The position numbers were made by a program, and so were the translations under genes. Below the pieces are notes generated by a model. The model saw nothing but the letters and a program-made list of their open reading frames with translations. It was not told where the DNA came from and ran no database searches. Positions 1,088 through 36,896 of a stretch of 64,000 nt of DNA are shown piece by piece. How positions within the stretch are numbered: position 1 is the first letter of the stretch; each line of letters begins with the position of its first letter. Origin of the DNA: Isoetes taiwanensis. Its lineage: Eukaryota > Streptophyta > Lycopodiopsida > Isoetales > Isoetaceae. Location: NCBI GenBank assembly GCA_021234155.1, contig JAJEKV010000239.1, forward strand, positions 1-64,000, given 5' to 3'.

Positions 1088-1099
1088 AAGATTCCCTTT
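1088..1099 (+). repeat. E1 left terminal inverted repeat candidate
   Basis: AAGATTCCCTTT matches the reverse complement of 10154-10165. Weaker similarity continues inward for about 50 bases (ACTTTTGG, then TTAAAAA, then ATTTAG in both ends). No flanking target duplication is visible. Confidence 0.5.
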
Positions 1100-1331
1100 T
1101 CAAAACCCCAAAATTTGGTACTTTTGGCATATCTTAAAAAAAACATTTAGATAAGCGGTCCTTTGACCTTAAAAAAGTGCATTTTTAGAACAAACAAACA
1201 AAAGTACAACATTTATAATTAAAAAGGAGGTTTTGGTAGTATTTTAAAGCAGCTTTTGCACTTGACACTGGCGCACATTACACAAACACAATACTAAGAA
1301 CGGTTAGAAGCATCAAAGAAACCTGCAAAAA

Positions 1332-1516
1332 ATGATACAAGGCCAAAATATGATGTAAAATAGATAAGAATGTCTGCGCGCATAGACATGCACCCTTTAA
1401 ACAAACCACATTTTAAAAAGTCATCATTTAAGTGCAAAATAATGATACAAGGGCCTTTTCATCCAAAGTGTAGTTTAAAGAAGAAAGGCATGTCTATCAT
1501 TTGGCGCATAGACATG
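1332..1516. repeat. Tandem duplication of about 108 bp carrying E1 hairpins
   Basis: Two units start with AATGATACAAGG-like sequence at about 1332 and 1440. Each ends in an E1-family inverted repeat: 1371-1388 (TGTCT, GCGCG, CATAGACA) and 1489-1516 (CATGTCTAT ... ATAGACATG). The second copy has a longer loop. This shows hairpins being multiplied by local duplication. Confidence 0.7.
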
Positions 1517-2530
1517 CTCTACCCACAACAGGCGATTTCTTTTTCAAAGTCAATATTTAAAAATAAATGTTATTTTTTTTTGGGTTTATAATCGGACACA
1601 CAATTTTTAAATGTCATGGGGACCTCCCTTATCATTAAGGGGTTCATCGCCTAAACATTGTGTTCTTCACCGTTGTTGGATCCGTTTCTTCCTCCTCTTC
1701 CTCTTCCTCCTCGAGGTTTTCCACCTCGGGTTCTTTATCTACCCTTTGGCATCAACTCAACATACTCCGGTGATCGGTGTTGCACGATCTGCGGGCATCG
1801 TGGCTCTGCGCTTATTCTGCTTGATAGCCAATCGTCCTTCACACCCACTTCTTGTTTCTCATCGGGCAAGTTCATTAAAGAACATATCACGGACTTAATG
1901 AAGGCAACACTATCGAGGAATCATACTCCCTTTACCAACACTGGTTGACCCTTCCTCAAAGCACATGAAATGGTGGGTGCGAGCGAAAATGCATCCACAA
2001 CCCGGTCTCGGTTGTGAAAACATTTCGAGCACGTTGATTATTTGGCGGGGCTTACAGTGCGGGTTGATATCGCGACCTGGTGGGCTGGGTGGGTCTACAC
2101 CGATGTATAGCTGCCGGGAGGTGGAAGACATTTCGATAGTCCATTCCTGTGTGTTGTAGTGTTGTAAAGGTCACGGTGCCTAGTGTCTTTGTGGTACCGA
2201 TGTGAATCTGTTCAAATCGTTTATAAGTCCCCAGCACCCCACCATGCCCACGGATGTTGGTCTTCACCACAATAAAACAAATGAAAGAAAGTCGAGACAA
2301 TTACGGATACCAAGTTTAAAGAGATGCAGACTTACCATATCGCGGGCTCGAATCCGCATTGCGGTGTTCCTTCGGCGTTGCTTGAACCAAACCCGGCTTG
2401 GTTGGTGGAGTGAAAGACAACGATCCTCCACAAAGGTCGCGTGTTTAGCTTTACAGCCGTTTGACAAAAGAGTCAAACTTCTATGCGTGCCAAAAAAGGT
2501 GGCGTCATCACCTCATTTTGTCGGGGCAAC

Positions 2531-2771
2531 TTAAACCCGTAGGGTATGTGACCAATGATCAAGGGTAGTCACCCGAGGTTTCAACACTCTGTCTATCTTC
2601 ACACAATCCCACGGTAGACTTGGTAGAGGCGATTGGTGGCCAAATTCATCAAAATTCTCAAAAGCACCGATTTTCTGTCGCTTTGAATCGGCCTCTTGTA
2701 CCCTTTTCAACTTGGCTCTTTCATCTTTTGCTTGCTTCACCAAAGTCAAACACGGTGGTACGGGTCTTTTT
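2531..2771 (-). pseudogene. E1 minus-strand gene, downstream exon
   Basis: An open minus-strand frame runs from a good acceptor (tcttgcag, intron end at 2772) to a stop near 2531. It is lysine- and arginine-rich at first (segments VKQAKDERAKLKRVQEADS and SKRQKIGAF), then reads FENFDEFGHQSP. I do not recognise a family. It follows exon 3030-3478 across the hairpin-filled intron 2772-3029. Whether it is the last exon, and whether the stop is native, is unclear. No hairpin occurs inside it. Confidence 0.45.
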
Positions 2772-3029
2772 CTGCAAGATAAAAGAAAGTGAGTACTTTG
2801 CAACTCCATGCGTGCATGGCAAAGGCGACATCAATCAAAGATTTAAGTTTTGTCCATGCGGCGACAACAAAGGCGAGGTTTTGCTATGCGCGATAGCAAA
2901 ACCTCAACTTTCTATCTTGTATGGACAAAACTAAATCTTTGCTATCGCGTGCAAAGCAAAGACTCAGCTTTGTCTATCGGCGCATAGACAAATGGTAAGA
3001 TGCAAGATAAAAAGCAAACAAATACTTAC
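2772..3029 (-). other. E1 intron packed with hairpins
   Basis: On the minus strand the donor is GTAAGT at 3029 and the acceptor is TTGCAG at 2772. Within it are CCATGCG/TGCATGG (2806-2819); a nested hairpin with outer arms 2838-2857 and 2921-2940 around a perfect 13-bp stem with a 5-base GCGCG loop (2875-2905); and TTTGTCTAT ... ATAGACAAA (2973-2996). Flanking exons lack such repeats. Splice sites are read by eye, not from transcripts. Confidence 0.55.
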
Positions 3030-3478
3030 CCGGTTAGTAAAATTTGGGGCAAATTGTTTTATCTTCTCATCGGACGAGAAATAGGGTGCGACTCACGAAC
3101 TTTTTTCCCAAATTGTCGCGAATTTAAATGGAGCATTAGTTGTTGCTGACCACGTTAGCACAATCTTTTTGGCTGCGATGCTTGATGTCGATCTGGGGAC
3201 AAAACCTACGGCCCGAAGTGGCAGAGTACTTCTTGTTTAAACTTCGTCTTTGCATTTCTTCTAAGGTGGCTGCCCGTCGACAACTTTTTTGAGAACCTGC
3301 CAAACTTTGTCCATGTTTTGAGGCCCGCATTTCCCTCAAGGCATCACCTCATATCCTTTTTGTTTGGAGGGCTCTCCCTTTTTCTTTTTGTCTCGGGCTT
3401 CTTCCCCTTTGTCTTCAAAGGTGCAAATCCGCATACATATCAAAATTTTCTCTTGCGGATCCCAAATCGTGGTGCACA
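3030..3478 (-). pseudogene. E1 minus-strand gene, internal exon
   Basis: The minus-strand exon is bounded by acceptor TTTTTAG (intron end 3479) and donor GGTAAGT (3029). Readable protein segments are WDPQEKILICMRICTFEDKG, a lysine-rich EEARDKKKKGEPSKQ stretch, and LEEMQRRSLNKKYSATSG, the last in a shifted frame. The reading frame breaks at least once, near 3340. The lysine-rich middle suggests a flexible nuclear segment. No family recognised. Confidence 0.45.
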
Positions 3479-3549
3479 CTAAAAAGATTGAGTGTCTATC
3501 GCGCATGGAGTAAAGGTGAGATTCAAACACAACAACTAGGGAAACTTAC
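3479..3549 (-). other. E1 short intron with one hairpin
   Basis: A 71-base GT-AG interval on the minus strand, from donor GTAAGTTTCC at 3549 to acceptor CTTTTTAG ending at 3479. It contains one imperfect E1-family repeat at about 3490-3510 (gtgtctat, cgcg, catggag). It is the clearest case of a tiny intron carrying the element's hairpin. Confidence 0.6.
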
Positions 3550-3974
3550 CGGCCGTGCACGAAGGCTAGCTGAAACAGTTGTCGTATTTAATCAATGAAG
3601 TCGGCGGCATCTTTTTGATCGTAAGTCAAAGCGACACTCAATTGCACATTGCTCCTTTAAAGCGAGATAAGCGTCCGGATCATCCTTTATGTCTTTCTTT
3701 CCGGGGTTCTCGCCCTATAATTATCATATTCTCTCGTGCATAAATTTAATTTTATCGACAAGCTCATGCTCAACACGTGAGTCGTTGTCACGTTGTGGCT
3801 CATAGCAAGCGCTTTTTTTGCCCGGTCGGTTACACCAACGTGGACGCGGCAGTAGAGATGAGAAGATTGCTTGCTTGAGTTCTTTCCAATTACGCCTTTT
3901 GCCTTAAATGTGTGTGTTCCACCAATCACAATGTACATGTAATTGTCGACCTCTTCTTTCTTAAATTCTTCCAA
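3550..3974 (-). pseudogene. E1 minus-strand gene, ParB-like exon
   Basis: The frame from 3974 reads MEEFKKEEVDNYMYIVIGGT then HTFKAKG, followed by CRVHVGVTDRAKKALAMSHN. A beta-strand ending in a G-G-x-H box, with a later cysteine/valine strand and an alanine-rich helix leading to an HN pair, resembles ParB/sulfiredoxin-fold nuclease domains, which bind or cut nucleic acid. The frame stops at 3687, but a shifted frame continues with DDPDAYLALKEQCAIE to the donor at 3550, so the gene is broken. Domain assignment is from memory of the motif; a profile search would decide. It is the most recognisable part of the E1 minus-strand gene. Confidence 0.4.
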
Positions 3975-4589
3975 GGTTTTTCACGATTACTTAGGGTTGA
4001 CAATCACTATGTGTGGGGACAGTTGCATTCGCCCCGGCCACGATTCTCTCTTTTAAGGCCGCCCGGTGGTTGGATAAATCTTTCTTACCCGCAGCGATCT
4101 GTTACCACGAGGATCCTTTGGGCACAACTTCCTCTATCAATCAAATGCATAATGCGGGCACCGGCACCTCTTCTCAATGTCCTCCGGCATTTTGGAGGCC
4201 TCGTCCATGCCCTTTGAGGCTATCTTCATGCGGGTCCTTGGGGCAAAGTTACACTTCGAAGGCTTCCCCTTTGACTTCTTTGTCTTCGGGCCTGTTAAGG
4301 TATTGATTTCGGCTTGCTTGCTTTCCGGCCAGTTTGCCGTCTTTTTTTCCTTCTTTTTTTTGCAAAACCCGGTTCTTCCTCCTCGAACTCTCCCGTCTGA
4401 TTTCCACCTCTTTATCCATTGTTCATCTCCCTCGGCTCTACCTTGCTCTACATCTGGATCTACCTCCCGGCTCTACCTCTGGCTCTCCCATTTCGCTTCA
4501 CCCCGCCTTTGGGTTCAAGAGTGGATCCTTGCACTTAAGCATCAGGTTCGGTGTTTCCACAAGATCCCGCAAAAAAAAGTTAGAAAAAC

Positions 4590-4612
4590 CCTATCGCGGC
4601 GCATAGACAAAC
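4590..4612. repeat. E1 hairpin just inside an intron
   Basis: CTATCGCGGCGCATAGAC lies about 10 bases inside the donor at 4624 of the minus-strand gene. It is an imperfect member of the E1 palindrome family. Confidence 0.5.
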
Positions 4613-4624
4613 AAAAGTACTTAC

Positions 4625-4763
4625 CTTTTCTTGCTTGAAACAAGCTGTATGAATTCTTGGGCGTTCTCATTAGCGGACATACTCGATCTAAAAACGTCGG
4701 GTCAACTAAGTGCACGTGGTGTCTTCTCCCTTTATTGGTGGTGGTGATCGTTATTGTAGCCAT
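4625..4763 (-). pseudogene. E1 minus-strand gene, candidate first exon
   Basis: The frame starts at ATG 4763, reads MATITITTTNKGRRHHVHLV then DPTFLDRVCPLM and FQARK, and ends at a consensus donor (AAAAG, GTAAGT). The threonine-rich start and clean donor suggest a genuine first exon. The next exon is not clear: several acceptors lie between 4530 and 4550. Function unknown. I group it with exons 2531-3974 because strand and hairpin-bearing introns agree. Confidence 0.4.
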
Positions 4764-5183
4764 GCCGAAAAGTTGAATTTGGTGATTACGCCCACTTCTT
4801 AAAATCTGATCCGGTCAACCCGACTTTGGCAAGGAAGATTTCGTGGCAATGTCTGAGATACACATAGTGCCGCGGATCCGGGGATATTCACCACCTCTAA
4901 TGATTAACCATTGGCGGTTCCTCTAAGAGAGAACCGTCATCATTAAGGTCCACGTTTGCGATTGGTAAAGGTAAGGGAGCCGAGGGGAGGGCACATCCCG
5001 AGGAGGCTTTACGGCTTTGGGTTTCTTCCTACGTAAATATAAAGCACAGCGGGTCAGAAAAATAAAAGAATGCTACAAAACAAACTGAGACTAAGTAAAA
5101 GTGAAAACAAAAACATGATAAACCTATGCGCAAGATAGACACACTAGGTTGTTGTCTAATGACAAGCAGACAAAATACTATTG

Positions 5184-5370
5184 TGTCTATGCGTGCATAG
5201 ATAAATAGTTTTGTCTATGCATGCATAGACAAAACCTAGGTATCTATGCGAGCATAGACACCTTAAGTTTTTTTCTCGTTGCAAGGACAAAAAAATTGTG
5301 TCTATGCGCGCATAGACACAATGGTTTCTACTCCATGCGTGCATGGACAAAAACTAGTGTTGTCTACGCA
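5184..5370. repeat. Cluster of E1 palindromes
   Basis: Six inverted repeats in under 200 bases. Two are perfect 28-base palindromes: 5208-5235 (half-site GTTTTGTCTATGCA) and 5295-5322 (half-site ATTGTGTCTATGCG). Others are TGTCTATGCG/TGCATAGATA (5184-5203), TATCTATGCG/AGCATAGACA (about 5241-5260), CCATGCG/TGCATGG (5333-5346) and an imperfect one at about 5358-5381. Arms are conserved while the central two to four bases vary (GCGC, GCAT, CGTG). Confidence 0.85.
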
Positions 5371-6478
5371 TGCGTGAGTAGATCCCATTAAGTCTAAACA
5401 TAGACACAACACTAGCTAACTACATCGCCATGCCTAAAATACAAAAATATACGAACAACTATCTAAAAAAGTAGTGCAACTAACCTATTTTTCATTTTCC
5501 ACACAAGCTAACAACATCTAAAAAAATGCAACAAACTAATTCTAAAATCACCATAACTACACTAGGCCCGGAAAACCGTTACCTTAACCTGCCATTTCAG
5601 TGCTATCTGAGTTGTATGGAGATGTTACGCAAACTTGGGAGAAGAGAACTCGGCGGGCGAGCGAGGGCGAGTTTACCGGGCTCCCTAGAAGCAAAGGTAT
5701 CTATGTGAGAAATGCCCACTTGATTCGGCCCTATTTATACTCCAAGTATTCATGTAGTTTGAGTTTTGTATGGAAAAGATACATGGACCATATATTTTTT
5801 CCCATGGGGTTGCTTATATTACTAGTGCCGTCTATCGGCATAGCAACCGAGTAGACTTATGTTTATTCTTGAACTAACCTCGGTGCATAGCATTTGTTTC
5901 TAATTCCATGTGATTAGGTTTGTTTAGGGCTACCTATGGCGCATAGGCAACCGAAATAACTTATGTTTATTTCTTGAACCTATGTGTGCATATTTGTTTG
6001 CTAATCCCTGCGTGCTTAGGATTTGTTAAGTGGAATGTATGGGATTGCTCGATTGGATTGTCGATTACCGCCTTTTTTACGTTGATTTGCCTATCGCGGC
6101 GCATAGGACTTGCTTGTTAGCAAACCGTGCGAAGTTTTTTATTACGTACAAGTAAGTCTTACACAAGCTGCTTTTGTCTTTGCAAACAAACACATGTGAT
6201 CCATGATCCACATGGAAGTCCACGACATTTTTGCTTCGATTACCTGGTGGTAAGTTCGCTCTCCCTCACCTCCACGATTACATTACAAACATGGCAAGAA
6301 TCCTCGGCAAGAAATGGAGGAGTCTCCGGTCCCTCGTACATTTGATCGCCCCTCTTCCACATTTGTCCTCCTTCACCCACTCACATAATACGCCGCTTCG
6401 TGTAAATTTAGAACTCCTTCGCCTATAACTTTCCACCAAGGCAAATATTCTCCATCTCCTTCATCGCAGGCACTGAAA

Positions 6479-9474
6479 ATGGGAGGTCCTTCTCTTTTTG
6501 ATACACCTTCTCCTTTTAAGGAGCTCGAACAAACTTTGGAGGATATTTCGTTCGCTAGGCGATTTCACAACGAAGTAAGGGACCTTCTCGCGTAGAGGGT
6601 TGAAGAGGAAGATATCTCCACGTTGAGAAGAAAATCAAGGACACTATTTCCACAGTCATTCTCATTTTGCAGCTCAACCGAATTAAGTGGCGCCAGGGTT
6701 GAACCACCAATTTGTCATAACAAGCGAGTACCACAACAGAGCCCTCCTTTGCAAGATCTAGCTTTTAAGAATCCCCTCTGGCAAATACAAGAGATTTAAA
6801 AGGGATCCTTTAAAAAGTTTTTAAATGCAGGTGTTCGGAACAAGCTCATGGGCTTGAAATACACGAGGAGCCTTTAAGGAGGCTAACTCGTCATTCGGAA
6901 AAATGTTTGCAGTCCTTCACATTTTACGCCATAAGGAGCATAAGGCATAGCCGTCAATGACCGGGGGTGACCAGAAGCTTACGGCTATTAACGTCGAGCC
7001 GTAAGATCGGAGACAACTTTTCTTACTACGATGAGGAAAAGCGTTTGTCAACTAGCTTTCAAAAGCATACATGCCTTAGGTAGCCGGGCGAATGGCTAGA
7101 GTGCGTAAACGCTTGGATTTGAATCCATGTATTGATGACACCATCACCAAAAAAAAGCGGTTGGCATGTCTTGTTTAGAAGCGAAGGTTTGGCTTGTGGA
7201 TTTCTTTTGACAAGAATTGCGAAGGTTGCCAAACGATCCGGTTTATCATCTAATGGATAGCTTTTGCAAAGAAAGAGGTCTATTCCTTGTACAAAGATCT
7301 CTTCCGGGCTTTGGGACGAAGTTCATTTCTTACTCCTACTTCCGCCGGTTGTGGAAGCGGGGAATTTAACCTCGTTAGGATTCGAAGAGACCGCAGGTTT
7401 TCGTCTGCTGTAACGTTCTCTTTTGAAGGAGGAGATCTCGACTAAGGTTCTCGCAGAGAAGTAAGTACCTACGTTCATGTTTACCTACGTGCACAATCAA
7501 TGTTTTCATCGATCATGCGGCGCTTAGTCAAAATCAATCTTGCCTATGCGGCAAGATAGGGAAGAGTGTTTTTGTCTATCGCATGGGCAAAACAAAGGTT
7601 TGCACAGTTGGTCTTCATGTCCACTTTCGAGCAAAGTGTCGGTGTCTATGCGCCGCATAAGCATAGGACACGATTTTGGCGTCTGTTTAAGTAAAAGCCG
7701 ACAAAGCTTCTCATTTTGTTGCGAGATCAAATTTCGCGGCAACTCAAAACCTGTGAGAGGCTCGGGCTTTAGAAGGAAACTCCGCGAAGCATCGAAAAAA
7801 TCATCGGAGAAGCCATTCAAAGATATGTCCATTTGTGATTGATGGCATGGATCAAAAAGAAAAAACGCCTCACTTTGTGAATGTTCCTAAAGAGTTACCA
7901 GGGCGGATTTTTTGAGGTTGCATTTAGTTGGTGCTCGATTTTTAATGGTGTGGTGGATCCTGCAGAGTTTACTTGACTTTACCCAAACATTCATGGTGAT
8001 CCTAACCTTGTGACAATTCTTAACAAGATATTGGCGGCAAAAGAAAAGCTACCTCCGCTTTTGCTTTATGTAAAATGGACAATACCACCCGGAGAGAACA
8101 AAACCGGGTATTCTTTGCTTTCATCGTGCTATCTTTGGTAGAGCTTGGCATATTTAGGAAGGTTAAAGTGGGCTTTCTTCTAGTGGGTCACACACATGAC
8201 CGGATCGACCAGATGTTGATTAAGCACCGGTGAGACTCATGAAAAAAGCTTTGTCTTGACTCCTTGTTGGAAGTGATTGAACAATCTTACAATCGAAACA
8301 GGTTATCGAGGTCTTAGCCGAGACTATCGATTCAAGTGAATTTGTTTTCAAAAAGCGGTCTACCAGTCTTGCCATCCAGCTAAATAATTTGACATTTCAA
8401 AGCATCATGTCAAATTCAAAATTCGCGAACAGAAAGCTTGTCTTCAAGGTAAATACTTTGTAACCTCAAGTCGGCTGCACGAACTAGGGTTGGAGTACCT
8501 TAAGTTTATCCCAAGGCGATTCTGAGAAATGAAAAGAGCTTTGGTAAAGAGCCCCTAAAAGTTCCATTGACTACACCAAAAGAATCCAGCCAAGGATCCT
8601 TTTGTCTCGCCGGCCAACATGGAGAAAAACATTTGTCTCATTGGCCAACATGGAGAAAAAACATACGGTTGGGATTTAAGTACTTGAGCTGATGTAGACA
8701 AACACGGTGGGAAGACCGGGTTTGAGGTCATGACAGATTTAACAAAGATCTTGAAGAGCACTTGTCTTAGAGGTTCCCTTTAGATGGCCTTGTAGTCGCC
8801 ATCACAACACATTCAAATTCCACGGGAAAGTGCGGATCGGGACTGCACTCCCGGCAGTGAACAACAAAGAACCCGACCGTCAAATGTATTTTTAGAAAAG
8901 CGGTAAAAAGAAAGCGGTCAAACTCTTAAAAGCTTGCGGACTTACAAAAGGACATGTTAATAGCTTGGTCCCTTCAAACAGATGGCGATGAGGAGTGTCC
9001 TTTCCTGGATTGCAAGGGTCAAAGATATTACCTACAAAGATAACCTTCCTTCAGTTGTAAAGGTTCAGCGGTATGCCACTAAGGCTACAGATCCATATAT
9101 CTTGGTAGATATGATCCTCAAGTCGTTCCCTGTCAAGAAGGGAAGGAAAACAATGAACAAGAATCATGTGGATGATGTCGACTTGAATGAAAATTTGTCC
9201 TTGCCCTACGACTTTACTTTGAGGGTTGATAATAAAAACGCAAAGACAACAGTTACATTGTTGAAGGAACAAATCGAGGGCATTTCGGACGAATCAAGAA
9301 ATCGAGGAGCCTACTCGCCGTCCGGTTCTTGAAGGCGAACCAACAGAGGGTCCTAGTAGTGGAGATGAAGAAGGAATCGATGAGTATGACGACGTTCTCG
9401 ATGAAGCCACTCGCCGAATAAGCGTAGCGCTAACCACGGCAAGAAGTCGCTATTGTAAAGGTGTAAATTTGTAG
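6479..9474 (+). pseudogene. E1 DUF7869-type gene, broken
   Basis: An N-terminal segment opens at ATG 6479 (MGGPSLFDTPSPFKELEQTL). A shifted frame around 8060-8215 reads MDNTT, GENKNR, then FAFIVLSLVELGIFRKVKVG and LLVGHTHDRID. The DNxxxxENKNR block, hydrophobic helix and VGHTHxxID box are what I know from the DUF7869 family, a widespread eukaryotic group associated with mobile elements. Later pieces (KFKIREQ at about 8420; 8982-9332; an acidic tail with SSGDEEGIDEYDD ending at TAG 9474) fit a C-terminal half. There are several frameshifts. A probable intron, 7461-7606 (gtaagt ... tgcacag), holds two E1 hairpins. The same order of blocks occurs in E2 at 33809-36712. Confidence 0.6.
7461..7606 (+). 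other. Probable intron of the E1 DUF7869 gene with two hairpins
   Basis: Donor GAAGTAAGTACC at 7461 and acceptor TTTGCACAG at 7606. Hairpins TTGCCTATGCGGCAAGATAGG (given as arms TTGCCTAT and ATAGG, 7540-7560) and TTTTGTCTATCGCATGGGCA (from 7570) lie between them. A further imperfect copy, GTGTCTATGCG ... ATAGGACAC, lies just after, at 7640-7672. Confidence 0.5.
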
Positions 9475-10153
9475 TTACATTCCTCGCTATGCACGCAGAG
9501 GCTTTAATATTTTTATGCGTAAGTTGTTTGAAAAGCAAAAGGACTTTTGGTATTTGTTGTGATACACTCTTGCTTTGCATGCAAAGCTTGTGTAAACTTT
9601 GTAATGATGTTGAATATTAAACAAAAAGACCTTTTTGAGTATTTTTTTATTTTCATTTGCTGAAATAATTTTTTTGTCTTGGTATGTCGCGCCGCATAGA
9701 CATTTTATCTTAAAGTTTGTTCGGGCTTGGTGAATGAACCTGTATTGTGCCTTCTTTGCAAGCTTTTTAGATCTTAAGTGAAAGAGATTCAAGCTCATCT
9801 GACTTTTTAGTGATTTGTATTATTTTTGGTATACCAAAATTTCTAATCTGGAGGTATCTATCTTGGCGATAGCACCTTGTCTCCGGTTTTTCTAGGACTA
9901 CTAATGGAACACATTATTTTCCTCTTTCGCTAGCTTTTAAAAGTTGTACTAGCTAAGATTCCAACTATTTTTTTTTTGTTGATTTCTTGTCCGTGCTAAC
10001 TTCCACAAGTTTTTTTTTTGTTTTTAGGACACCCAAAAATGGTGCACGGAAAGTAAAAAGAACAGCATTTTTTAATAATTAGGCGCCAAAAAAGAGCACT
10101 GTTAACTAAATTTGTAGTCTATTTTTAAGTGACCCCCAAAAGTGGTCGAATTT

Positions 10154-10165
10154 AAAGGGAATCTT
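10154..10165 (-). repeat. E1 right terminal inverted repeat candidate
   Basis: AAAGGGAATCTT, the reverse complement of 1088-1099. See the left end for inward similarity. Confidence 0.5.
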
Positions 10166-10930
10166 AGAGAATCTACAAAAGATGCTTTTTATTAGTGCAA
10201 TTGCAGGTCATTAGTGCGTTTGATCCGTCACCTTGTTTTTAGATGACTTAGTTAGGAACGAAAGAGAAGTCTTTTGAATCCTTGGTCTTATTGCTGCCAA
10301 CCTGCATTTCTCGGAAGAGGTTCTGTTTGGATTCCTTGGTCTCATATCAGAAACGATAAGCCAAAAGAGCAGAATTCGATATTAAGAAGCTCCATTGGAG
10401 ATGTTCCATTTGAAGTGAAGATTTAAGGTACATACTCAGATACTAGCTCGACATACTATTATCACGACTGTGTTTTTGTTATCTAGATGATTTTAATGCA
10501 AAAATGGATGTAGTATGAAAGTACCATTTGCAAAGTGAGCTCAGTTACCATTGACTCATGCATTAATTATTGCATATGAAAGTGCCGCAGCTCCACGCTC
10601 TAGCTATATGCTTGCTTAGCTGCATTTTTCATTTTAGCTTATATTTTTTATTAAGGTTTTGGAGATAATCCTAGAAAAGCTCTCAGCGATGCCATCTGCA
10701 CCTTTCCCTCTGATACACATGTCTATTCCTAAATGCCACAATTACCAAGTATGAAAATACTTGGTGATCGTAGCCTTTGTGCAAAAAAGAAGATAGATAC
10801 GGTCATCATTTTTAGTCCAGCTTCTTGGTTTACATCGCATATATTGATGCTGCAACTGTGAGTGCTGGTTTCAGCTGGTCTTGGAATACAAGACTCTCCA
10901 CACTTTGTTTTTGGCAGTGAATACATCTAG
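10166..10930. other. Unassigned interval
   Basis: AT-rich, with no open frame I would defend. A short duplicate (tttgaatccttggtct / tttggattccttggtct) occurs near 10275 and 10330. Confidence 0.5.
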
Positions 10931-26700: not shown

Positions 26701-26837
26701 TTCAGGTCCTTTACGGCTGTGGCGGTGTCTTGATGCGGATTGTCTTTGTCCTTTTCATTCTCCTCCTCGCTGGCGTGAACCGCTGCCCAATGACAATGAT
26801 CGAATTCGTTGACACGGAATTCCACGAAATGATGACA

Positions 26838-26959
26838 TATGTCGAGAAAGGAAGCGAGTTTTTTCGACTTCATGAGTCGAGAATGAAAAAGGTATTGAAA
26901 GGAAGCGAGTTTTTCGACTTCGTGAGTCGAGAAACACCGATAGAACAAAGTAAACTCAC
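26838..26959 (-). other. E2 intron part with two palindromes
   Basis: The donor GAG/GTGAGT lies at 26959 on the minus strand. Downstream are TTTTTCGACTTCGTGAGTCG (26903-26930) and TTTTTTCGACTTCATGAGTC (26858-26883), each preceded by ggaagcgag, so the hairpin plus its flank is duplicated. The acceptor is not clear. Confidence 0.5.
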
Positions 26960-27500: not shown

Positions 27501-28180
27501 TCATGATCAAGTTAGGTATATGGAGTGCATGATCTTGTTGGTGAAGTTAATATCGTTTGCCCATTGGGAGGCGGCGGTTAATGCGATTGCGGCATGCAAA
27601 GATAAAGAAGCGAAAGTATCGGTCGGTCATGTCGGAACCGTCTTGTACCTGCTTGCTCTATGTCGGCTTTGTCATAAAAAGGGTGGGGTCTTGATCATAT
27701 TGATGGCAAATAGTGCCCCGGGTCAGTGCGGTTCGGACCACCAAATCCCTTGTGTCCCAAAGTTACGAGAAATGGGGGAGCTATCGATGCGCCTTAAATG
27801 GGACCACCCGAATCAAGCTTCCTCTTGAATTGCCATGCTTGCGTTCGAGGGGAAAGGAAGGGTTTTGGCGTGCAGCTTCAGCTTGGTGTTGATGTAGGGT
27901 TGACATAGGCGGTTCAATTCCTTCATGTCTTCCTCATCAAGGGCAGCCTTTTCCTTGTAATAATCAAAATCATGGTATTCATTAGATGCAGCGTTGCGAG
28001 AACTTCCGTGATGCCTTCTTCTAACGCCTTATTAAGCTTTGGGGCGTGGCATAATCCTTTAGATCTGCATTTTAGAACTCTGGTCTTCCTTAGTAGGATT
28101 GTTCCTTCCAAGATTTTTGCCTTGTAGGTCAAAGCGTTTCTTTGTCCGTCGGGCCACTGTATCCTCTTCATGAGCGCTTG
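27501..28180 (-). other. E2 interval with weak minus-strand coding traces
   Basis: Short open frames in all phases; the strand of neighbouring exons suggests eroded coding sequence. No motif recognised. Confidence 0.3.
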
Positions 28181-28562
28181 TCAAACAACTTGGGGTCCGG
28201 CTGCTTGGAAATTCTCCATTCTTTGTCCTTGACTTGCCTCTTGTCCATTGAGCCCATATCTCGGTCCATTTCTCCCGGACAGCCTCGGTGCTAAGAATGA
28301 GGTCATATTGGTGCGAGAGAGACTCCCTACCTTTCCTTGGTGTTCTCTTCTTCTTCTCCTCTTCTTCCTCTCCCTCATCATCTTCTGTCCCTCAGTGAGA
28401 ACATATCGCATAGTTTCTCAAAGGTCTTCCACTTATCAGGGAGCCTGTTTCCTTTAGGGCCGAGGACAACCCAATGCTTTCCTTTGTTGCCCTAAGCGTG
28501 TATGATCAGGTCGGGATAAAGGGCTGCATTGGTCATTGTACCAATGTCGAGCATGAAAGTAT
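28181..28562 (-). pseudogene. E2 minus-strand exon, unknown
   Basis: It begins at an acceptor (tttgtag, 28563) and reads TFMLDIGTMTNAALYPDLII, then after one stop KHWVVLGPKGNRLPDKWKTF and EKLCDMFSLRDRR. It continues in a shifted frame with EKWTEIWAQWTRGKS. It is clearly protein-like (glycine turns, helix-rich charged region) but broken, and I cannot name it. Confidence 0.45.
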
Positions 28563-28931
28563 CTACAAACACCGGAATAAGCGGTAAATAGTAACGATAA
28601 AAAGTCCCCTTCTTTTACTTATCGGGTTTTCACCATTTCAGTCGAGAAAGTCTACATCCTTTGATTTTACGTATTTACCACGGCTTTCTCGATGGCTTTT
28701 CGAGTGAAACCCGATGATGTCGGGGAAAAGCGTTAAGATGGTAGGGCTTTTCGACTTCGCTGAGTGAAAAGTCCTATGAGTGTCTAATTTTCTTTTTACT
28801 TCTGCGGGTTTTCGATTTCGCGAGTCGAAAGCTCTGCATCCTTTGATTTTTACGTGTTACCACGGCTTTCGACTTCGCGAGTCGAAACCCGATGATAATC
28901 GGCAAATGTTAGGATTGAGAGAGTTATTTAC
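28563..28931 (-). other. E2 intron with duplicated palindromes
   Basis: The donor GTAAAT at 28931 and acceptor TTTGTAG at 28563 bracket two related blocks (about 28624-28715 and 28806-28895, sharing gggttttc, tgcatcctttgattttac and accacggctttc). E2 palindromes are at 28748-28771, 28808-28832 and 28866-28889 (CTTTCGACTTCG/CGAGTCGAAA type). Confidence 0.55.
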
Positions 28932-30240
28932 CTTCGTGCTTCGCACTTTTCGCTGCTATTGTGTTACGGCGTGGCTAATCTTTGGCGATTCGGTTCTTTG
29001 GCGTCTCCGTAGAAAAGAACTTCTGCACTCTCGCTTGGCATATCTATCCTTGATCGCTGCGGCACCTCCTTCTCCGTCGCAATACTTGCGCCGCCCTAAG
29101 CGAATCTTGACCGTCTACAACCCGAACCGGACGTCCTTTCCCTTCCGGATCTTCCTCGGACTTCGGTGAACAACTCGCGGTCGATCGCTAAAAGGTATGA
29201 CATCGCGGGCATTGGATCTGCAGCGGGATGTCGCACCATCGAGGTTGAGAATCTCCGGCATGTGTGCTGGATTAAATTCCACAATGGTTGAACAAGGCGG
29301 CATCTCCGTGCAAACCTTGGTAGTCTAATGTCGGCGGCGGCTTGTGTGATATTCCCAGCGGATATCTTGAGCCGGCCGCTCCATTTTTACGTGCCCCTCT
29401 GTGAAATCTGATCGATCATGCGGATCCATTATTGGGAAGTCGACCATATCTTCGTCTCCGCCGTCATCTGATTCCTCCGTGTGGTGTCATCTTCCCCATC
29501 TTTGTTTTTGGTGGACTTTTTTGTGTATGAACCACAACTTCATTCCCCAACTGCGAGTGTTGTAGAGTCTTGACCACGGTAGAAGTGAAGCTCCCGTATT
29601 GAGCAGTTTTTCCACGACTCACGGAAATCTCCATTCCAAGCTCCACGGATGTTAGGGTTCCGGCCTCCTTCATCCCTTCGGATCCTTCCACCCAAGGTTC
29701 GACAATTTAAAAGCGCTGCCTTTTTTGGTGCCCTTAGCCTTGCTCATGGAAGAGTGAGAATAATTTGAAGCTGCTAATTTTTTGGTGTGATAGAACTTAC
29801 TCTTACGGCGGTCCTCGACATGTAGTGTTAAATGCTTGAATCTGGCGAGGCGGAGAGCACAACACCGATTTTCTTGTACTTGTCTCGGGAGCTCTTCTTG
29901 TCCCTTTGGTGGGAAAGCAGATCTTTCTCCTTCCCACTTGTTGATACCTCGACATACCACCAAGAATCTGGTGGTGTGTCAAAAGCTCTGTCTCCAGTCC
30001 CTCGATGGCGAAGAGCGGAGTTGACCCGGTGATCACTAGTGAGTCGAGGTGAATCTTTGCAAGAAGAAAGGATGGATCGGTTAAGGTATTCCGACAAAAG
30101 AAAAACCTCGAGCTCACACAGGGTGTTAGTCTTCTTCTTCTTCTTTGCCGCTAGAACTAGCATCCCCTCCGGCCTAAGCTTCTTGGGCCGGAGTCATAAT
30201 ACGTATGCCCTCTCATCCTCTTAGGACCCTTCTATAAATT
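28932..30240 (-). pseudogene. E2 minus-strand coding traces
   Basis: Open frames include SRCRSNARDVIPFSDRPR (about 29200), SAFKLSNLGWKDPKG (about 29700) and LDSLVITGSTPLFAIEGLET (about 30020). They are interrupted and change frame often. They may be upstream exons of the same minus-strand gene as 26.1-28.6 kb. No family recognised. Confidence 0.3.
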
Positions 30241-30610
30241 AAGTTTCCTCGTGGCGTTGTGAGTTTTAGGATTTGCATGTAAAAAGATCGGGCGTGTTCT
30301 TTAGTTTGAATTTAAGGACATGCAATCATTTATGAAAAAAAAAGCGGGCTAAAAGTGCGGCCGCGGTCGGCTTTAGCCGCCCAAACACTATTTCGAAATT
30401 TAATCACATCAAGGGACTTAGTGGCGGGGCGTAGTTTATCTTCAACTGCGGCATTGGCGACCCCGAGTTGGAGGGAGCATCGGTATGCGACTTCGGAATG
30501 GGGCGCCCTTGGCAGCGGTAAGCTGCTAACGGCGCCTTGAATGTGTGTTTTCTGGACGGCGTCCTATTGCAAAAGCGCGTCCTATTGCAAGCGGTTGATT
30601 TGATCGATGA

Positions 30611-30823
30611 GCACCGGAGACTAAGGTAGGAAGCGGAGAGGAGCTGCCGAACCACGGGGGAACTCTACAACTGCGGCGCCATGGAGCGGGGATCTGCGAG
30701 AATGTGATGATACAAGTATTAGATGAGAGTGCACTATTGATGAGACCGACAGAAGAAGCAAAGACTCTCGGTGAGGCTGCGGGATCCGTGATACAGTGGC
30801 CCAAGGAATTTCTGCGTGAAGAG
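30611..30823 (+). pseudogene. E2 plus-strand exon resembling a CACTA-associated domain
   Basis: Open to a clean donor (GAAGAG, gtgagt at 30824), this frame reads ICENVMIQVLDESALLMRPT, then EEAKTLGEAAGSVIQWPKEF. The pattern 'LLRPT-x-EA-x-TLGEAVG-x-x-x-WP' is familiar from plant CACTA/En-Spm-associated proteins (DUF8039-like domain). Upstream, YCKRLI-type pieces at 30540-30600 could be its eroded start. It suggests E2 captured, or descends from, material related to CACTA genes. Judged from motif memory only. Confidence 0.4.
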
Positions 30824-31099
30824 GTGAGTTTCAGAGATGCCTGTATTATTTTCCGTGTAGAACATGCGATGCGTGTTTAAATCATGGAACGCTCATAAGC
30901 TCAGCCGGGTTTATTGTTTCCTTGTCCGGCATTTTTCAGCCGAGAGATGATTTACTCTACGGGTTGAGAGATGCTCGGCAAGGAAACAATGAATCGGGTA
31001 AACTTGAGCAGTCCATTTTAGGTGTATTTTTTCTTGGAATGTTTTCTTAGAATGTTGTATATAGATCGGGCTAGGTCTAAGGCCGGGGAGAGATGCGGT

Positions 31100-32180
31100 T
31101 CAAATGCATCCTCTGTGGTTAGTCGAGAGAGGCCTCCACCCAGTCGGAACCACTCCTCTTCGCAATATTCGAGGAAGATGGTTCGAAGGAGAGTGGCTCA
31201 GACAGGCTAGAGGCACCTGGGACTACAAACAGGAGAATACAGTGCTTGGTTGTAGAGACCTATGCTAAGACCCAAAGGCACAGGACGGTCGGGGGCCACT
31301 TCCCTTCATAATATTGGCGGTATAGTTTGAAGGAGAGTGGCTCAGGCTGTCTCTGCGGCTGAAAAAATGCGGGGGGGCGGGCATTGCTATGTGGGATTGG
31401 GCTAAGGGATTCTCGACTTGCGAGTCGAGAATGTAAGCCTTAGCTTCCTCTCTGCAATCTCGACTCGCGAGTCGAGAATGCAGACAGCAAGCTCTGTGGT
31501 TTCCCTGTGGTTAGTTGTAGAGGCCTCCCACCGGTCAGAGCCCCTCCCCGCCAATATTGAGGAAGATGGTTGAAGGAGAGTGGCTCTGGCCCGGGAGTCG
31601 GAAACGACTCCCACCGAGGAGAATTAGGTGGCTAAGGGATTCTCGACTTGCGATTAATCAGTGTTGGTTTCTGTCCACATTCTCGACTCGCAAAGTCGAG
31701 AATGCCTTAACTCATCGAGAACTCCGGGATAGTACACATGGAGTGCGGTTGGGTAAGGCATTCGGACTCTTGGCGAGGAATGCATCTGACTAAAGCTCAC
31801 GTGGTTTCCCTGTGGTTAGTTGTAGAGACCTCCACCCGGTCGAGCCCATCGCCCTCCCTTGTCAATATTCGGCGAAGATGGTTGAAGGAGGCGGTCTTTA
31901 TTTGGGTAGAAAGACTATAGCCCCCACCGAGGAGAATTGGGTTGCTAAGAGTTGGCTTGTGGCGGTCAAAACCACTTCCCTTGGCAATATCGAGGAAGAT
32001 AGTTTGAAGGAGAGTGGTTAAGGCTATCTACTTGAGGGCACAGCGAATCCCACTAGAGCCTGCGTTTTTCGACTCATGAGTCGGCCGACCAACACCTCTG
32101 TGGTTAGTCGCCCGAGGCCTCCACCCGGTCGAGCCAGTCCTCTTAGCAATATTGATGAGCATGGTTGAAGGAGGTGGCTG
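31100..32180. repeat. Field of about six imperfect ~90-bp repeats
   Basis: The repeated theme is ctgtggttagt, then gaggcctccaccc.gtcg, then caatattg.ggaagatggtt.gaaggagagtggct, beginning near 31110, 31290, 31500, 31805, 31960 and 32095. Palindromes with E2 arms sit between units. No protein is encoded. It could lie within a long intron following the exon that ends at 30823. Confidence 0.75.
31405..31480. repeat. Pair of E2 palindromes
   Basis: ATTCTCGACTTGCGAGTCGA (from 31409) and TCTCGACTCGCGAGTCGAGA (from 31459), arms 10-11 bases. Confidence 0.85.
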
Positions 32181-32227
32181 GTTGGGGTGGGGCACACTGC
32201 GGCGCACAAAGGGCTATTGACAGGGTA

Positions 32228-32410
32228 TGACATTCTCGACTCACGAGTCGAGAAGGCTGCAGCAGGCTTAAAAAGAATGTGAAGACGTTGGGTAGCTGTG
32301 TGCAATCCCGAATCGCGAGTCGAGAATCCCTCAACCAGCCAACAGTCCAGAGTGTACACTCCCTCTTCTCGCCTCGCGAGTCGAGAAGTTCTCGACTCGC
32401 GAGTCGAGAA
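32228..32410. repeat. Four E2 palindromes, two abutting
   Basis: ATTCTCGACTCACGAGTCGA (32231-32253), a damaged copy at 32305-32328, then two back-to-back copies at 32365-32388 and 32389-32410. The last is a perfect 22-base palindrome (half-site TTCTCGACTCG). Confidence 0.85.
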
Positions 32411-33480
32411 GAAGGCCTGTACTTCCTGGACTGTTGGCAAGCTGAGGTATTCTCAACTCGCCACTCCCTTCTGCATGTCTCTGCCTTGGTGGAGGATATC
32501 TTTGTGAGTTAGAAATGCAGATTCTGTGAAGCAATTCCTATTCTTAGTTCTCAGTGGGAGAAAAACATTCCTAGTTATGTTCTGTTATGAAACATTCTTA
32601 GACAGTTTAGCTATATCTTTTGTGAATCTCTCCTAGTAATGTTCTGTTAATGCTCTGCAATATCTTACTTACTAACACCTGTCTCTGATGATTTCTATCT
32701 CGGTTGCTTGCTACTACTCTTACCACTACTCTCACTTGTGCCTGTACAATGTATTCAATTCAACCACAAGCAAGAAAAAGATACTTGTAGAAGCGAGAAA
32801 ACAATACAAAAGGAAAAAACGGATATGAGAGAGACTAGTGAGATTAATGAGAAAAGCAGAGAGAACGATGAGAGAAATGAGATTAAAAAAGGGTATGATA
32901 TTACAAAACATACACGGAAGATTTCTTTGCATGAGGAGGAAGCTCCGTGTTCGATTCCATGTGGATGCAGTCGTTACAAAGCGTGAATAATGGATTTGTC
33001 GGGGTACGTAAATTGTATCGAGGGATTAATAAGAGCCTCTAACAACGAGAATATAAGTAAATATGCGATAAAGGACTTTGAGAAAACTAAAAGCGGCAGA
33101 TAAAAAGGCCTCACTTTCTTCTCAGGCGATGCGCCCGCTCGAACACTCAATCAAGGCGAACACTTCGGTATTTGAAGGCGTCTCGATCCGTCGACCAAAA
33201 TTTCTTTGTCATAAGATGGCCTTGGAATGGCTCGGTTCGATCGATCGCCTGATCGGAAGACCCGCTTAAGGAAAATACTGGGAGCGAAGAGTGATCGAGA
33301 GAAAGCGGGGGAGGAAGAATGGTCGGGGAGAGGAAGAGGGTGCGGTTAATTCTGGCTGCACCCTCGAACCTAAATAAAAGTGCAATAATAAACTTACATC
33401 GCGTGTGGGCCATGCCCTCCATGGCGATGCAAGTACGGGTTCTTGACATGTACGCTTTCAGCCTCGAGGAGGCGCCCATT
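32411..33480. other. E2 interval without clear gene
   Basis: A minus-strand candidate start exon at 33395-33479 (MGASSRLKAYMSRTRTCIAM) ends at a GTAAGT donor near 33399. Beyond this I see only short frames. Confidence 0.3.
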
Positions 33481-33489
33481 GGCCCATGA

Positions 33490-33770
33490 CAAGATATTAA
33501 AGGTTATATGTTTATATATGTTACCTTATATTTATATATTTAATATGGTTTCAATGGTTGAATAGTATTAAAAGGTTATATATGGTTACAATGTTTACAT
33601 ATGGTTTTACAATGAATATGGTTGTATGGTTTAATATGGTTATATGATTTTTAGTTAATATGGTTGTATGATTTAATATGGTTTAATATGGTTATATTTA
33701 ATATGTTTGTATGGTTTTATATGGTTCATATGGTCATATTTGTGGTGTTTGGGGCTATATGGTTTTAATG
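33490..33770. repeat. ATATGGTT-type low-complexity repeat
   Basis: Roughly 280 bases of degenerate tandem units (taatatggtt, tatatggtta) directly in front of the DUF7869 gene. Confidence 0.85.
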
Positions 33771-33808
33771 TGAGCTTTTTCATTCAGGGAGCATGTGAGA
33801 GGAGTAAA

Positions 33809-36712
33809 ATGGAGCCAAGGAAGTCCAGCAGAGAGCATTGCCCTAGGCTCCAATGGAGGAAGATGGGTTGCCTTTTGTTGCACCCTTGCAACCAGACGGT
33901 ATTTGGAGAGGGGATAATAACTGCAGTTGATCCATTTGATAGTGTGAATGATGAAAGGCTGGGAGATGATCATCTTGGAGTTGGCATTGTGAAGCTTCTT
34001 ATCCAAGTTGATACAATCATGTCCCAGGGAAGCTCTAGTGATTGCATTGTCTGCTCTGGGTTGTTGGAGTCCCAAACTCAGTTGAGATGGCCAATCAGAT
34101 ATATTACACACAAGAATGGTGATAGTCTGGAATGCCCTATTGAACTACATACCCCAAGGCCCACCCAAGGCCATGTGGAAGATTTGGTGGTCGATGAGCA
34201 TCCTTTGATCACAAGGAAGAGGCGCTATGTTTTTTCATAAGAGGCAGCAAAAGGGTGCCCAAGAGGCCTAGAAGTGACAAATATTTAGAGAGGATGGAAA
34301 GTATGGCCCCAACCAAAGAAAACCTAGAGGCAATTAGGGGACAAGAGTGTTGCAACCTAGATTGCCACAGTCTTGATACAATGTGGATGACCTCGATGCA
34401 GGATAAAGGTCCCAATACATTGGACAGACTTCAAAAAGATAGGATTAATTTCATTTACTCCTTGTGTAGGAATTCCAGCTATGATGAAAACACGGGGAAG
34501 GCTACTATATCAATTGAGGGGCATGAAGGTATGTATGAGAGCATTGAGATGGATTCTTGGGGTGAGCAAGTCTTCATTTACGAGATCTTTGGGAGCAGGT
34601 TAGAAAAGGGCACAGTTTGTTCCAACATGGTAATGCACTCACTTTGAAACCTAGAGCAAATACTCTCAAGGCCATTTGCGGTCTTGAGAGCTTTGTGAGA
34701 TACATGTCTCAATCTATGCCCCACAAAGTCGAGAAGGTGAGCGAGCACGGTGTGCGAGTGGTCCAAAGGGTATTGCCACAACATTACATCCAGAAAAGAG
34801 TGCCTTAAAGAGGTCAACTCCATCCTAGAAAAACTTCTTGGAGGTAGGCCTCTTTCTCAATCACATTTCAGCAAGTTATGGAGCACTCACTTCTCGGGCG
34901 TGAGTGTCCTGCAACACATGCCATTTTCAAAGTGCAACACTTGCATTCAACTCAAGGATACACTTGCATCAACTGCAATAGAGAAAGAAAGAATGGCAAT
35001 TAGGGAGCAATTTGCAGATCACCAAAGGGACCAAATATCATGTAGGCGGTTGTATTGGCGGTGGAGAACATTTTACGAGATCGGTGGGACAAATTTTTGT
35101 GTATAATTCATGATAAGATGGACCAACACAAGACTTTCTTGCCAAAGCTAGATCCTTTACCCAAAGCGTTGTCAAAAGCGCTTTTTCGGATGAAAGTAAG
35201 TCCTGGGTGTCTTAACACATGGTCATGGAACTGGAACATATGGTCATTTTGTGCTTGATCTATGGAGGGATGATCCAAACTTCCATGTGAGCTCTATTTT
35301 CAAGTGTTTGAGAACACTAGAGAAAGGATCAATAGAAGGGAGGAGGTATTCCCCTTCAGCACCCATTTTTGAGGCTTTGATGGATGATCAACCGCTTTGT
35401 TACCAAAGGCAGATAAAAAGGCTCACATCCAAGGTGTCTAGTGAATCAAGGAGGACTTGGGATGATTTCCCCTTACTTGAGAAACCCACCGAGGAGCTAT
35501 GTGTTCAATTGGACAACTGTTGGAAAGAAAACAAGAATAGATGGATGTTTGGGGCAATGTCATACTTGACAGCAGTGGGAGTATTCAAAGTTGTGAAAGT
35601 GGGATTCATGATGGTTGGGCATACGCATGATGATATAGATGGGTTCTTTGGAACCTTCTCCACCAAGCTCAAGAGAGAAAACGTGACTAGTCTACCTGAA
35701 CTAATGGATGTGTTTGAGAGCTGCATTGACCCCAACCCAATGGCATTCTTGATGGATGAGGTTGCAGATTGGAAATCATTTGTAGAGGGATACTTGCTAG
35801 ATGGTAAGGACCGGTTGATGGGACACACAAAGCCACTTGAGTTCAAGTTTTGGGTTAGGGATGGAATACCAATCATGCAATATAAGTGGAGACCAGGTGA
35901 CAAGTTGTGGATGCCCTGTACAAGGAATCGAGTTGTGGCAGAGGGGTCTTCTTTGGTGAAGTTCTCATCCCTAAAGGACAGCCAAAACCACTACCTCCCT
36001 TCAAGGCATCAAAGACTCTAGCCAACTAGTGAAGGGCATCAAGGATTACATAACGACCTTTGGGATGATGTTGAAATGGAAAGCACACCTCCATTCTTAA
36101 GAAAAATCAAATGGACTCCCTAATCAAGCACTTGGGAGAAAGTTGTGACATGCTTAGAAACCGAACAACCATGTGGGAGGAAGGTAAGAGACGGGTTCTT
36201 GAGTCAAGATGGGAGGGTTCTCAAGGAGCAAGCACATCTAAGAATGTTCACTTGGGTCCTAACAAGGGTTCCAAGTGGTTTGTGGGAAGTAAGGCCTCAA
36301 AGCCAAAGTGGTTTGATCTTCCCGAGTGGGATCCCTTTGAGGACATCAAGGAAGGATACTTTGTGCTAGTAAGGCGATGATGAGGACCTGTCCAATATGG
36401 TTAGGGGTGGCACTCTCCGATGTAACCACCACTATGCCCGATGGAGAGGAGTTACGCCTGGATTCCAAATTCAATATTGGGAGCCCATTGGGAGACACAA
36501 GAAAGGCAACTTGAAGGAGCAATACAGAATTGGCCGGGAGAAGAAGTGGAGGGCAAATTATGCTGATCCTCAAAGGGGGAATTGGTGGAGTGTGTGGTAT
36601 GGTCATATCCAAGTTCTCACACCGCAAAGGAGAACACACACAAGATCCCAAAAGGGAGATGGACAAAGCCATGAGCAACCTCCATGCTATATCATTGTAT
36701 GAGGGTAGATAA
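33809..36712 (+). pseudogene. E2 DUF7869-type gene, frameshifted
   Basis: From ATG 33809 (MEPRKSSREHCPRLQWRKMG) the blocks run in family order: a VDPFDSVNDERLGDDHLGVG segment; FFIRGSKRVPKRPRSDK; a cysteine motif at about 34340 (QECCNLDC); KCNTCIQLKDTL at about 34940; DKMDQHKTFLPKLDPLPK at about 35115; VQLDNCWKENKNRW at about 35500; VGFMMVGHTHDDIDGFFGTF at about 35605; WRPGDKLWMP; and a C-terminal part to about 36712. The conserved Asp/Asn and His/Asp residues (MDQ, LDN, GHTHxDID) are all present and could form a metal site, but that is inference. At least four frameshifts (near 34240, 34645, 35050, 35250) break it. Family recognition is from memory. Confidence 0.7.
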
Positions 36713-36871
36713 TATTGAGAAGCCTGAGAACTTTCTCAACTAGTGGTTTGTAAAATTTATGAGGAAAACAAGTAACCCAATTCTTTGTGTGTGATGTGTA
36801 ATTCTATTCAAGCAATGAATTCAGAAATTTTTTTGTCCCATTTTCAGTCCGAGTCCCAAAATTCAAGATTT

Positions 36872-36896
36872 GTCCCACTTTAATTAAATACGACTT
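36872..36896 (-). repeat. E2 right terminal inverted repeat
   Basis: Begins GTCCCACTTTAATTAAATAC and ends GACTT; exact reverse complement of 24695-24719. Confidence 0.85.

Follow-up and report, generated by a model that had tools for sequence, protein, structure and literature searches.

Family-specific palindromes in DUF7869 transposons of Isoetes taiwanensis: candidate recognition sites for an element-encoded protein

The window analysed here, a 64-kb stretch (the whole of the DNA introduced above) of the Isoetes taiwanensis assembly (1.66 Gb, 1,110 contigs), contains two large transposons, E1 and E2, each of which carries many copies of its own palindrome. Our analysis confirms that this pattern is real, above chance and more general than the two window elements, since four element families have four unrelated palindromes: CTATGCGCGCATAG (E1), TCGACTCGCGAGTCGA (E2), TGTATTCCGGAATACA (E3) and TGTATGAATTCATAC (E4). 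Judging from the sequences, we consider it rather probable that the palindromes are family-specific cis-acting sites, recognised in trans by an element-encoded DNA-binding or modifying protein. This reading draws on the motifs themselves, their family specificity and amplification, their absence from the coding blocks tested, their persistence in non-autonomous copies and the linked DNA methyltransferase and DUF7869 genes.

A Pfam scan of the reading frames found DUF7869 (PF25273) in both elements, in agreement with the original prediction, made from the letters of the window, that they are DUF7869-type transposons. They are best read as large Sola1-like (DUF7869) DNA transposons. The span predicted for E2 proved right, with a perfect terminal inverted repeat (TIR) and a target-site duplication (TSD), whereas the ends predicted for E1 (1088-10165) lie inside that element, because the homology of other copies continues outwards to an AACAAGG TIR with its own TSD. 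The elements and their main landmarks are as follows:

1037..10237, no strand assigned: E1 transposon, ends corrected by alignment of four other copies and by TSDs
Left end of the window copy of E1: TIR AACAGGTGGCGGATC
1033-1036 and 10238-10241: E1 TSD, TTTA
8024..8230, plus strand: E1 DUF7869 (transposase) fragment, PF25273 E=2.6e-15
24695..36896, no strand assigned: E2 transposon, with a 25-bp perfect TIR, AAGTCGTATTTAATTAAAGTGGGAC
24691-24694 and 36897-36900: E2 TSD, TTCA
35200..36018, plus strand: E2 DUF7869 (transposase) exon, PF25273 E=4.5e-39

The alignment of copies gives the TIR of the E1 family as AACAAGGTGACGGATC..., and the E3 elements C1081 and C1034 also start with AACAAGG (TSDs AATT and AATG). 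Four relatives of E1 (C931, C952, C579 and C941b) are 88-90% identical to it and 93-94% identical among themselves; three have TSDs (C931 TGTA, C952 AAGA, C579 TAAG) and C941b is missing its right end. A second E2 copy, C76, shows 81-82% identity in two long aligned pieces. Identical 4-bp flanks border nine of the ten elements in which both ends could be read (window E1, window E2, C931, C952, C579, C1081, C1034, C23 and C13), the exception being C941a. The DUF7869 family is not special to this genome, since DUF7869 proteins are widespread (liverwort, fern, cnidarian, amphioxus); a literature search on "DUF7869" found no paper naming the domain.

Within the window, a search for the half-site CTATGC (up to two mismatches, gap 0-6) found 22 sites in E1, against a mean of 1.2 and a maximum of 3 in 40 dinucleotide shuffles, and the half-site CTCGACT (gap 0-8) gave 12 sites in E2, against a mean of 0.25 and a maximum of 2 in as many shuffles. 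These counts bear out the predicted "about twenty" and "about a dozen" hairpins, and the two perfect 28-base palindromes described for E1 are indeed there, at 5208-5235 and 5295-5322. Palindromes of any sequence (arm 10, at most one mismatch) are also in excess, with 11 in E1 and 13 in E2 where eight shuffles averaged 1.9 and 1.5; two other parts of the window had 4 against 3.5 and 12 against 6.4. The E1 core occurs seven times in E1 and never in E2, the E2 core eight times in E2 and never in E1, and neither is present in the remaining 41.5 kb of the window. There, a looser half-site setting yielded seven E1-type and no E2-type sites, about what shuffling predicts for that length, and the palindromes form loose, mostly AT-rich groupings.

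The earlier statement that neither palindrome family appears outside its element is thus true of the cores within the window, but it does not extend to the genome. Allowing up to three mismatches, in any context, the E1 20-mer has 1,815 places genome-wide, the E2 22-mer, the commonest of the three counted, 12,282 and the E3 22-mer 7,237, whereas the reversed control words gave only 1, 3 and 2 in the same search. As these numbers far exceed their controls, the families are not confined to the two window elements, and the palindromes appear to mark large element families. When loci were picked by their DUF7869 match, before any look for palindromes, all four (C1018, C1081 and two on C1034) proved to carry palindromes, E3 three times and E4 once. 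Loci C1018, C1081 and C1034, chosen by DUF7869 score and frame length, have the third palindrome, AAGTGTATTCCGGAATACACTT; a 4.3-kb locus upstream of the best DUF7869 match (L032) has the fourth, with core TATGAATTCATA and a largest palindrome family of seven members, compared with at most three in 40 shuffles. The matrix of cores against elements is essentially diagonal, with shuffles near zero; the off-diagonal entries all concern the E4 core, with one match each in C952 and C13 and two in the 41.5 kb outside the window elements.

With respect to their placement, family-motif sites avoid coding sequence: in nine elements, none of 92 sites falls inside a coding block, where 28.1 would be expected by length. 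The blocks were defined by between-family homology only and make up 4-38% of an element, and the 92 sites do not amount to 92 independent trials because the copies are related. Besides introns, the sites occupy intergenic and subterminal DNA, as listed here for the window:

1368..1517, no strand assigned: palindromes in subterminal E1 DNA, at distances of about 340 and 460 bp from the element's left end
2772..3029, minus strand: E1 intron, placed by splice signals (GTAAGT...TTGCAG), with family palindromes, RNA fold z -6.1
3479..3549, minus strand: E1 71-bp intron, placed by splice signals, with one degenerate palindrome, RNA fold z -0.15
5122..5414, no strand assigned: densest palindrome cluster of E1, including both perfect 28-mers
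5830..6106, no strand assigned: E1 palindromes between the divergent genes
7461..7607, plus strand: E1 transposase intron, placed by splice signals, with palindromes, RNA fold z -3.5
9482..9700, no strand assigned: palindromes close to the right end of E1, on the downstream side of the transposase
24849..25877, no strand assigned: palindromes close to the left end of E2, on the far side of the second gene
26825..26959, minus strand: E2 intron holding two palindromes, both degraded; its donor GTGAGT is intact and its acceptor is TTTCGTG, against TTTCAG in C76
28563..28931, minus strand: E2 intron, placed by splice signals, with palindromes, RNA fold z -4.1
31401..32466, no strand assigned: densest palindrome cluster of E2, between the divergent genes

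By our reading, several of the introns, with GT-AG ends, recur in relatives. The C76 equivalent of the degraded E2 intron (GTGAGT...TTTCAG) holds two perfect palindromes, and C76 aligns partly with the intron at 28563..28931, the motif being kept. By our reading of the splice signals, the gene divergent from the transposase has introns at matching positions in E1 (C952) and E3 (C1081, C1034), and each holds the motifs of its own family, E1 motifs in C952 and E3 motifs in the other two; the E3 palindrome array occupies one intron in C1081 and the next intron in C1034. The original prediction, that the hairpins are intronic and that neighbouring exons lack them, therefore survives in its second half and for several GT-AG introns. 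It fails as a general rule, because sites also lie near both ends, between the divergent genes and in copies without known genes, so that the intron is not their common denominator. Two further observations concern the arrangement of the palindromes: between the E2 genes (window 31121-32460) they alternate with another repeat unit (GAAGGAGAGTGGCTC, GAGGCCTCCACCCGGTC), and in the E1 copy C941b two E1 palindromes sit within an inverted repeat with 40-nt arms (joined coordinates 9503-9586).

The non-autonomous copies are perhaps the most informative. Two elements with E1 ends, C23:4417-8001 (3,585 bp, TSD TATG) and C13:5710-8888 (3,179 bp, TSD ATTC; both in local stretch coordinates), have no homology to the E1/E3 proteins (tblastn, E 0.01, six loci; other coding content was not sought), and yet they hold seven and eight core sites, against 0 and 0.02 on average in 100 shuffles. 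Alignment of C13 to E1 is limited to 173 and 113 bp at its two termini, and the unalignable interior has the E1 core. Further E1-type ends with core sites were found in C941a, in two copies in C507, in C930 (ends placed by blastn only) and in C907. E1, C931, C952, C941b, C13, C23 and C941a each have a site about 230 or 340-355 bp inside one end, as do C507 and C907 at about 230 bp; the matching first site of C579 is degraded. Because copies without E1/E3 protein homology keep their seven or eight sites, the palindromes are best seen as cis-acting DNA sites that would be read in trans.

A candidate reader is encoded by the gene divergent from the transposase, which in E3 has a ParB-like region followed by an N6/N4 DNA methyltransferase. 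The latter matches PF01555 (E=2.7e-16, over the C-terminal part of the domain), and its profile matches that of CcrM (6pbd) at E=2.1e-10 over most of the profile length; its motif IV is DLPYG or DIPYG and its motif I FSGSGTT. The E1 copy C952 has unbroken blocks homologous to E3 at 56%, 44% and 44% identity, and E4 has a ParB-like exon, so that the ParB-like region is conserved across E1, E3 and E4. In E1 and E3 the ParB-like and methyltransferase parts are apparently joined in one protein. The corresponding features of the window, and the second protein of the E2 copy C76, are:

1876..2697, minus strand: E1 N6/N4 DNA methyltransferase remnant spread over two exons, whose assembled frame is broken; identified by tblastn against E3 exons (one with PF01555), with unbroken blocks in C952
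3732..4289, minus strand: remnant of the E1 ParB-like coding sequence, with a broken frame in the assembly; tblastn to the E3 protein E=1.3e-13, unbroken C952 block E=5e-42
26960..28400, minus strand: E2 second gene (approximate), equivalent of the 412-amino-acid frame of C76
L031:4563-5798, minus strand: E2 second protein in copy C76, a 412-amino-acid open frame without a recognised domain

The pairing of methyltransferase and transposase recurs among the loci scored. Among the best-scored 150 of 1,443 methyltransferase candidates and the best-scored 150 of 9,903 DUF7869 candidates, with same-family copies counted separately, at least 24 pairs lie within 15 kb, where 0.4 would be expected; 22 of these 24 are divergent, 17 of them at a distance of 4.9-6.2 kb. 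On contigs C1-C97, compared by eye, an exact E3 palindrome lies within 2 kb of six of seven methyltransferase matches. Between the E3 copies C1081 and C1034 the non-synonymous distance is low, at 0.24, with synonymous sites saturated, and the ratio of non-synonymous to synonymous change (dN/dS) in DUF7869 is 0.11. Related methyltransferases are numerous in phages (822 records, best E=6e-8). Neither the ParB-like/methyltransferase composite nor the E2 second protein has a relative at E<=0.001 in the 5.8-billion-protein set.

We propose that the E1-E4 palindromes, spread over introns, intergenic and subterminal DNA, serve as candidate address labels, and that their reader in E1, E3 and E4 would be the product of the divergent gene, ParB-like at first and then, in E1 and E3, resembling a CcrM-like N6-adenine/N4-cytosine methyltransferase. 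From the sequences, this product may be expected to bind the palindromes. By analogy with VANC or with TnpA of Spm, such binding might mark the element or shield it from host silencing, and it could possibly aid transposition too. In E2 this part would fall to the second protein, through a fold that is different or eroded. A more elaborate version, which we put forward tentatively and regard as doubtful, is a self-recognition code: each ParB-like methyltransferase would read its own palindrome, load there as ParB does at parS, and write N6-methyladenine or N4-methylcytosine (6mA/4mC), also in trans on gene-less relatives, with reader and palindrome changing together to give several mutually blind systems in one genome.

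Several results sit awkwardly with a palindrome-reading protein of this kind. The best NCBIfam score for CcrM, 4.3e-16, is far under that model's cut-off. The label ParB-like combines our own reading with a weak DUF6551 match (E=0.0046, in one of three members), and searches with this region gave no credible PDB match and no phage relative. The E1/E3 protein matches nothing in the window copy of E2 or in C76, and for the 412-amino-acid second protein of C76 neither Pfam nor PDB nor profile comparison gave a methyltransferase match. CcrM recognises GANTC, a word present in the E2 motif and not in the E1 or E3 motifs. The E3 copies are without obvious subterminal sites, their arrays being central, and E4 is known from 4.3 kb only. 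Finally, in the stretch around the E1 copy C931, 51 TTCTAGAA words lie outside the element in a different palindrome-rich repeat, on both sides of the copy (G000:C931:960374-967600 and 978167-978430), which shows that DUF7869 elements are not alone in having repeated palindromes. As separate observations on E2, the palindrome core GACTCGCGAGTC contains two GANTC words although the element has no detectable methyltransferase, which may be a coincidence; and a resemblance, seen by eye, of the end of the second protein to an eroded S-adenosylmethionine-binding motif was put aside, as no test supported it.

Of the other explanations, the one that deserves most attention, though we think it unlikely, is that the palindromes are transposition sites only, at which an accessory protein or the transposase pairs the ends as TNPA does on CACTA elements, with no epigenetic role. 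The retention of sites in copies without known genes and the site at about 230 or 340-355 bp from one end of many E1-type copies would suit such a function, and CACTA subterminal repeats likewise form stem-loops and are family-specific (PMC2613891). However, many sites lie kilobases from the ends, in introns and central intergenic DNA, those of E3 are central and the first site of C579 is degraded; moreover, synapsis alone would hardly account for a conserved DNA methyltransferase. It is less probable still that the palindromes are functionless products of tandem duplication, hairpin-templated mutation and gene conversion, surviving only where selection on coding sequence fails to eliminate them. 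The arrays, with 31-42 bp spacing, do differ between copies, some arms are palindromic beyond the shared core, nested inverted repeats exist, and another palindrome abounds in the repeat beside C931. Against this stand the interior of C13, unalignable to E1 and with the same core, the maintenance of one motif across the copies of each of four families, and the loose, mostly AT-rich character of the palindrome groupings elsewhere in the window.

Two of the three roles originally suggested, an aid to splicing and the seeding of small RNAs, fare worse than the third, element-specific recognition, which fits best. If the hairpins folded in pre-mRNA and helped to splice long introns, one would expect palindromes in GT-AG introns, as several are, and stable folds, as indeed five of six introns have compared with shuffles (z -3.5 to -9.3, the sixth being z -0.15; 60 shuffles per intron, two intervals off by up to three bases). 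These z-scores do not discriminate, however, because palindromes fold whatever their purpose, and the motif is kept in elements without homology to the known proteins as well as in subterminal and intergenic DNA; we judge such a role quite improbable. Inverted repeats in transposons can in principle seed small RNAs, but the arms here, mostly 8-14 bp, are short for precursors, and we give this role hardly any weight.

The palindrome centres call for a separate comment, since the original prediction took conserved arms around a varying centre as a sign of selection. Variation at the centre is present in the assembly: in 19 of 25 aligned site clusters (six with tangled alignments were excluded) the centre is not the same in 120 of 186 copy pairs, and in 99 of the 186 its length differs, compared with 126 and 60 of 380 for flanking 7-column windows and averages of 0.43 and 0.22 for background 8-column windows. 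The inference of selection is weak, as the changes concentrate at CG generally. In E1-type copies the indel rate of the CG dinucleotide is 0.173, against 0.04-0.09 in other dinucleotides, and CAG/CTG reads as CG in 79 of 3,804 cases (20.8 per 1,000), about eight times the rate for GnC (12 of 4,644, or 2.6 per 1,000); the next highest middle-base loss, for TnG, is 11.7 per 1,000. Window E1 has 102 CAG plus CTG and C952 has 263, the same odd centre variants recur at independent sites, and in the window copy of E2 a splice acceptor CAG reads CG. Because CG and CAG/CTG vary abnormally throughout the copies, we have dropped the notion that central hypervariability is a footprint of cutting or demethylation at the dyad. 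The centre variation and CG excess are probably base-calling error at methylated CG/CHG, and noise in the assembly probably accounts for part of the varying centre. The CG-centred pattern could be explained by sequencing error at methylated sites or by CpG hypermutability; the E3 pair C1018/C1081, which has no CG effect, is hard to square with a general base-calling error. Such error, if real, would fake frameshifts in this assembly's transposons, and the frames of window E1 and E2 are possibly broken in part by assembly error.

The surroundings of E2 offer some side observations. Direct repeats of 39 and 177 nt (95-96% identity, 16.3 kb apart) flank it at 23020-23234 and 39353-39570 and overlap a pentatricopeptide repeat (PPR) frame at 23211-23753, minus strand; the insertion site of E2 may have been a duplicated PPR region or an older element. 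A PPR frame beside E2 would by itself point to a land plant. To its right, at 37441-38313 on the plus strand, is a short spliced-looking gene with exons separated by intron-like stretches, whose longest frame has no Pfam match above the cut-off.

Among known systems the nearest is Sola1-1_Ec32 of Ectocarpus, which carries a ParB-like plus methyltransferase gene on the opposite strand and for which the authors suggest that such proteins bind and modify their own transposon's DNA; the available part of that account names no target site (PMC12477816). E1 and E3 share with it the architecture of a large DNA transposon with an N6A/N4C methyltransferase and a putative ParB-like region opposite the transposase and a 4-bp TSD, the latter a feature of Sola elements (PMC10741241) that is not exclusive to them. 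They differ in belonging to a land plant with several families per genome, each with its own palindrome, while palindromes go unmentioned for Ectocarpus in the same portion of the source (PMC12477816); E2 differs further in having no recognisable methyltransferase. The VANDAL elements of Arabidopsis provide a parallel in logic. As far as the accessible text of the reports goes, their short family-specific motifs occur in introns, intergenic and terminal non-coding DNA, are lacking in the coding probes tested, form fast-changing tandem arrays and are read by an element-encoded protein, VANC (PMC5735166, PMC10398659). The E1-E4 motifs are similarly family-specific and concentrated in non-coding element DNA. 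VANDAL elements, however, are of MuDR type with 8-9-bp motifs, and VANC lowers cytosine methylation, whereas here we have 14-22-bp palindromes and a candidate methyltransferase; Pfam scans of selected frames found DUF7869 and no MULE domain.

CACTA elements have subterminal repeats that form stem-loops, differ between families (PMC2613891) and are kept as a cis-determinant by non-autonomous copies, and TnpA of Spm is linked to demethylation (PMC2613891, PMC10398659). The repeated, stem-loop-capable, family-specific motif retained in non-autonomous copies is common to both, but the present elements end in AACAAGG... or AAGTCG..., have a 4-bp rather than a 3-bp TSD, carry sites throughout and encode different proteins. 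Other transposons with DNA-modification genes, namely DNMT retrotransposons, TET/JBP fungal DNA transposons and Dam-like DIRS elements (PMC5890265, PMC12730594), also bear an enzyme acting on DNA modification; the enzymes are others, and no element-specific palindromes are described for them in the available text. The proposal of self-marking by ParB-like/methyltransferase proteins, which had no named target in the accessible part of its source (PMC12477816), now has four candidate palindromes; with these, unbroken protein relatives and gene-less copies that keep their sites, it becomes directly testable. If true, it would add to VANDAL/VANC a further case of co-divergence between element-specific motif and protein, in which the protein would be a modification enzyme rather than an anti-silencing factor. 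The ParB-like/methyltransferase accessory gene was thus already known from Sola1, and what is new, within the literature searched and the parts of it available, is the palindromes as its candidate targets.

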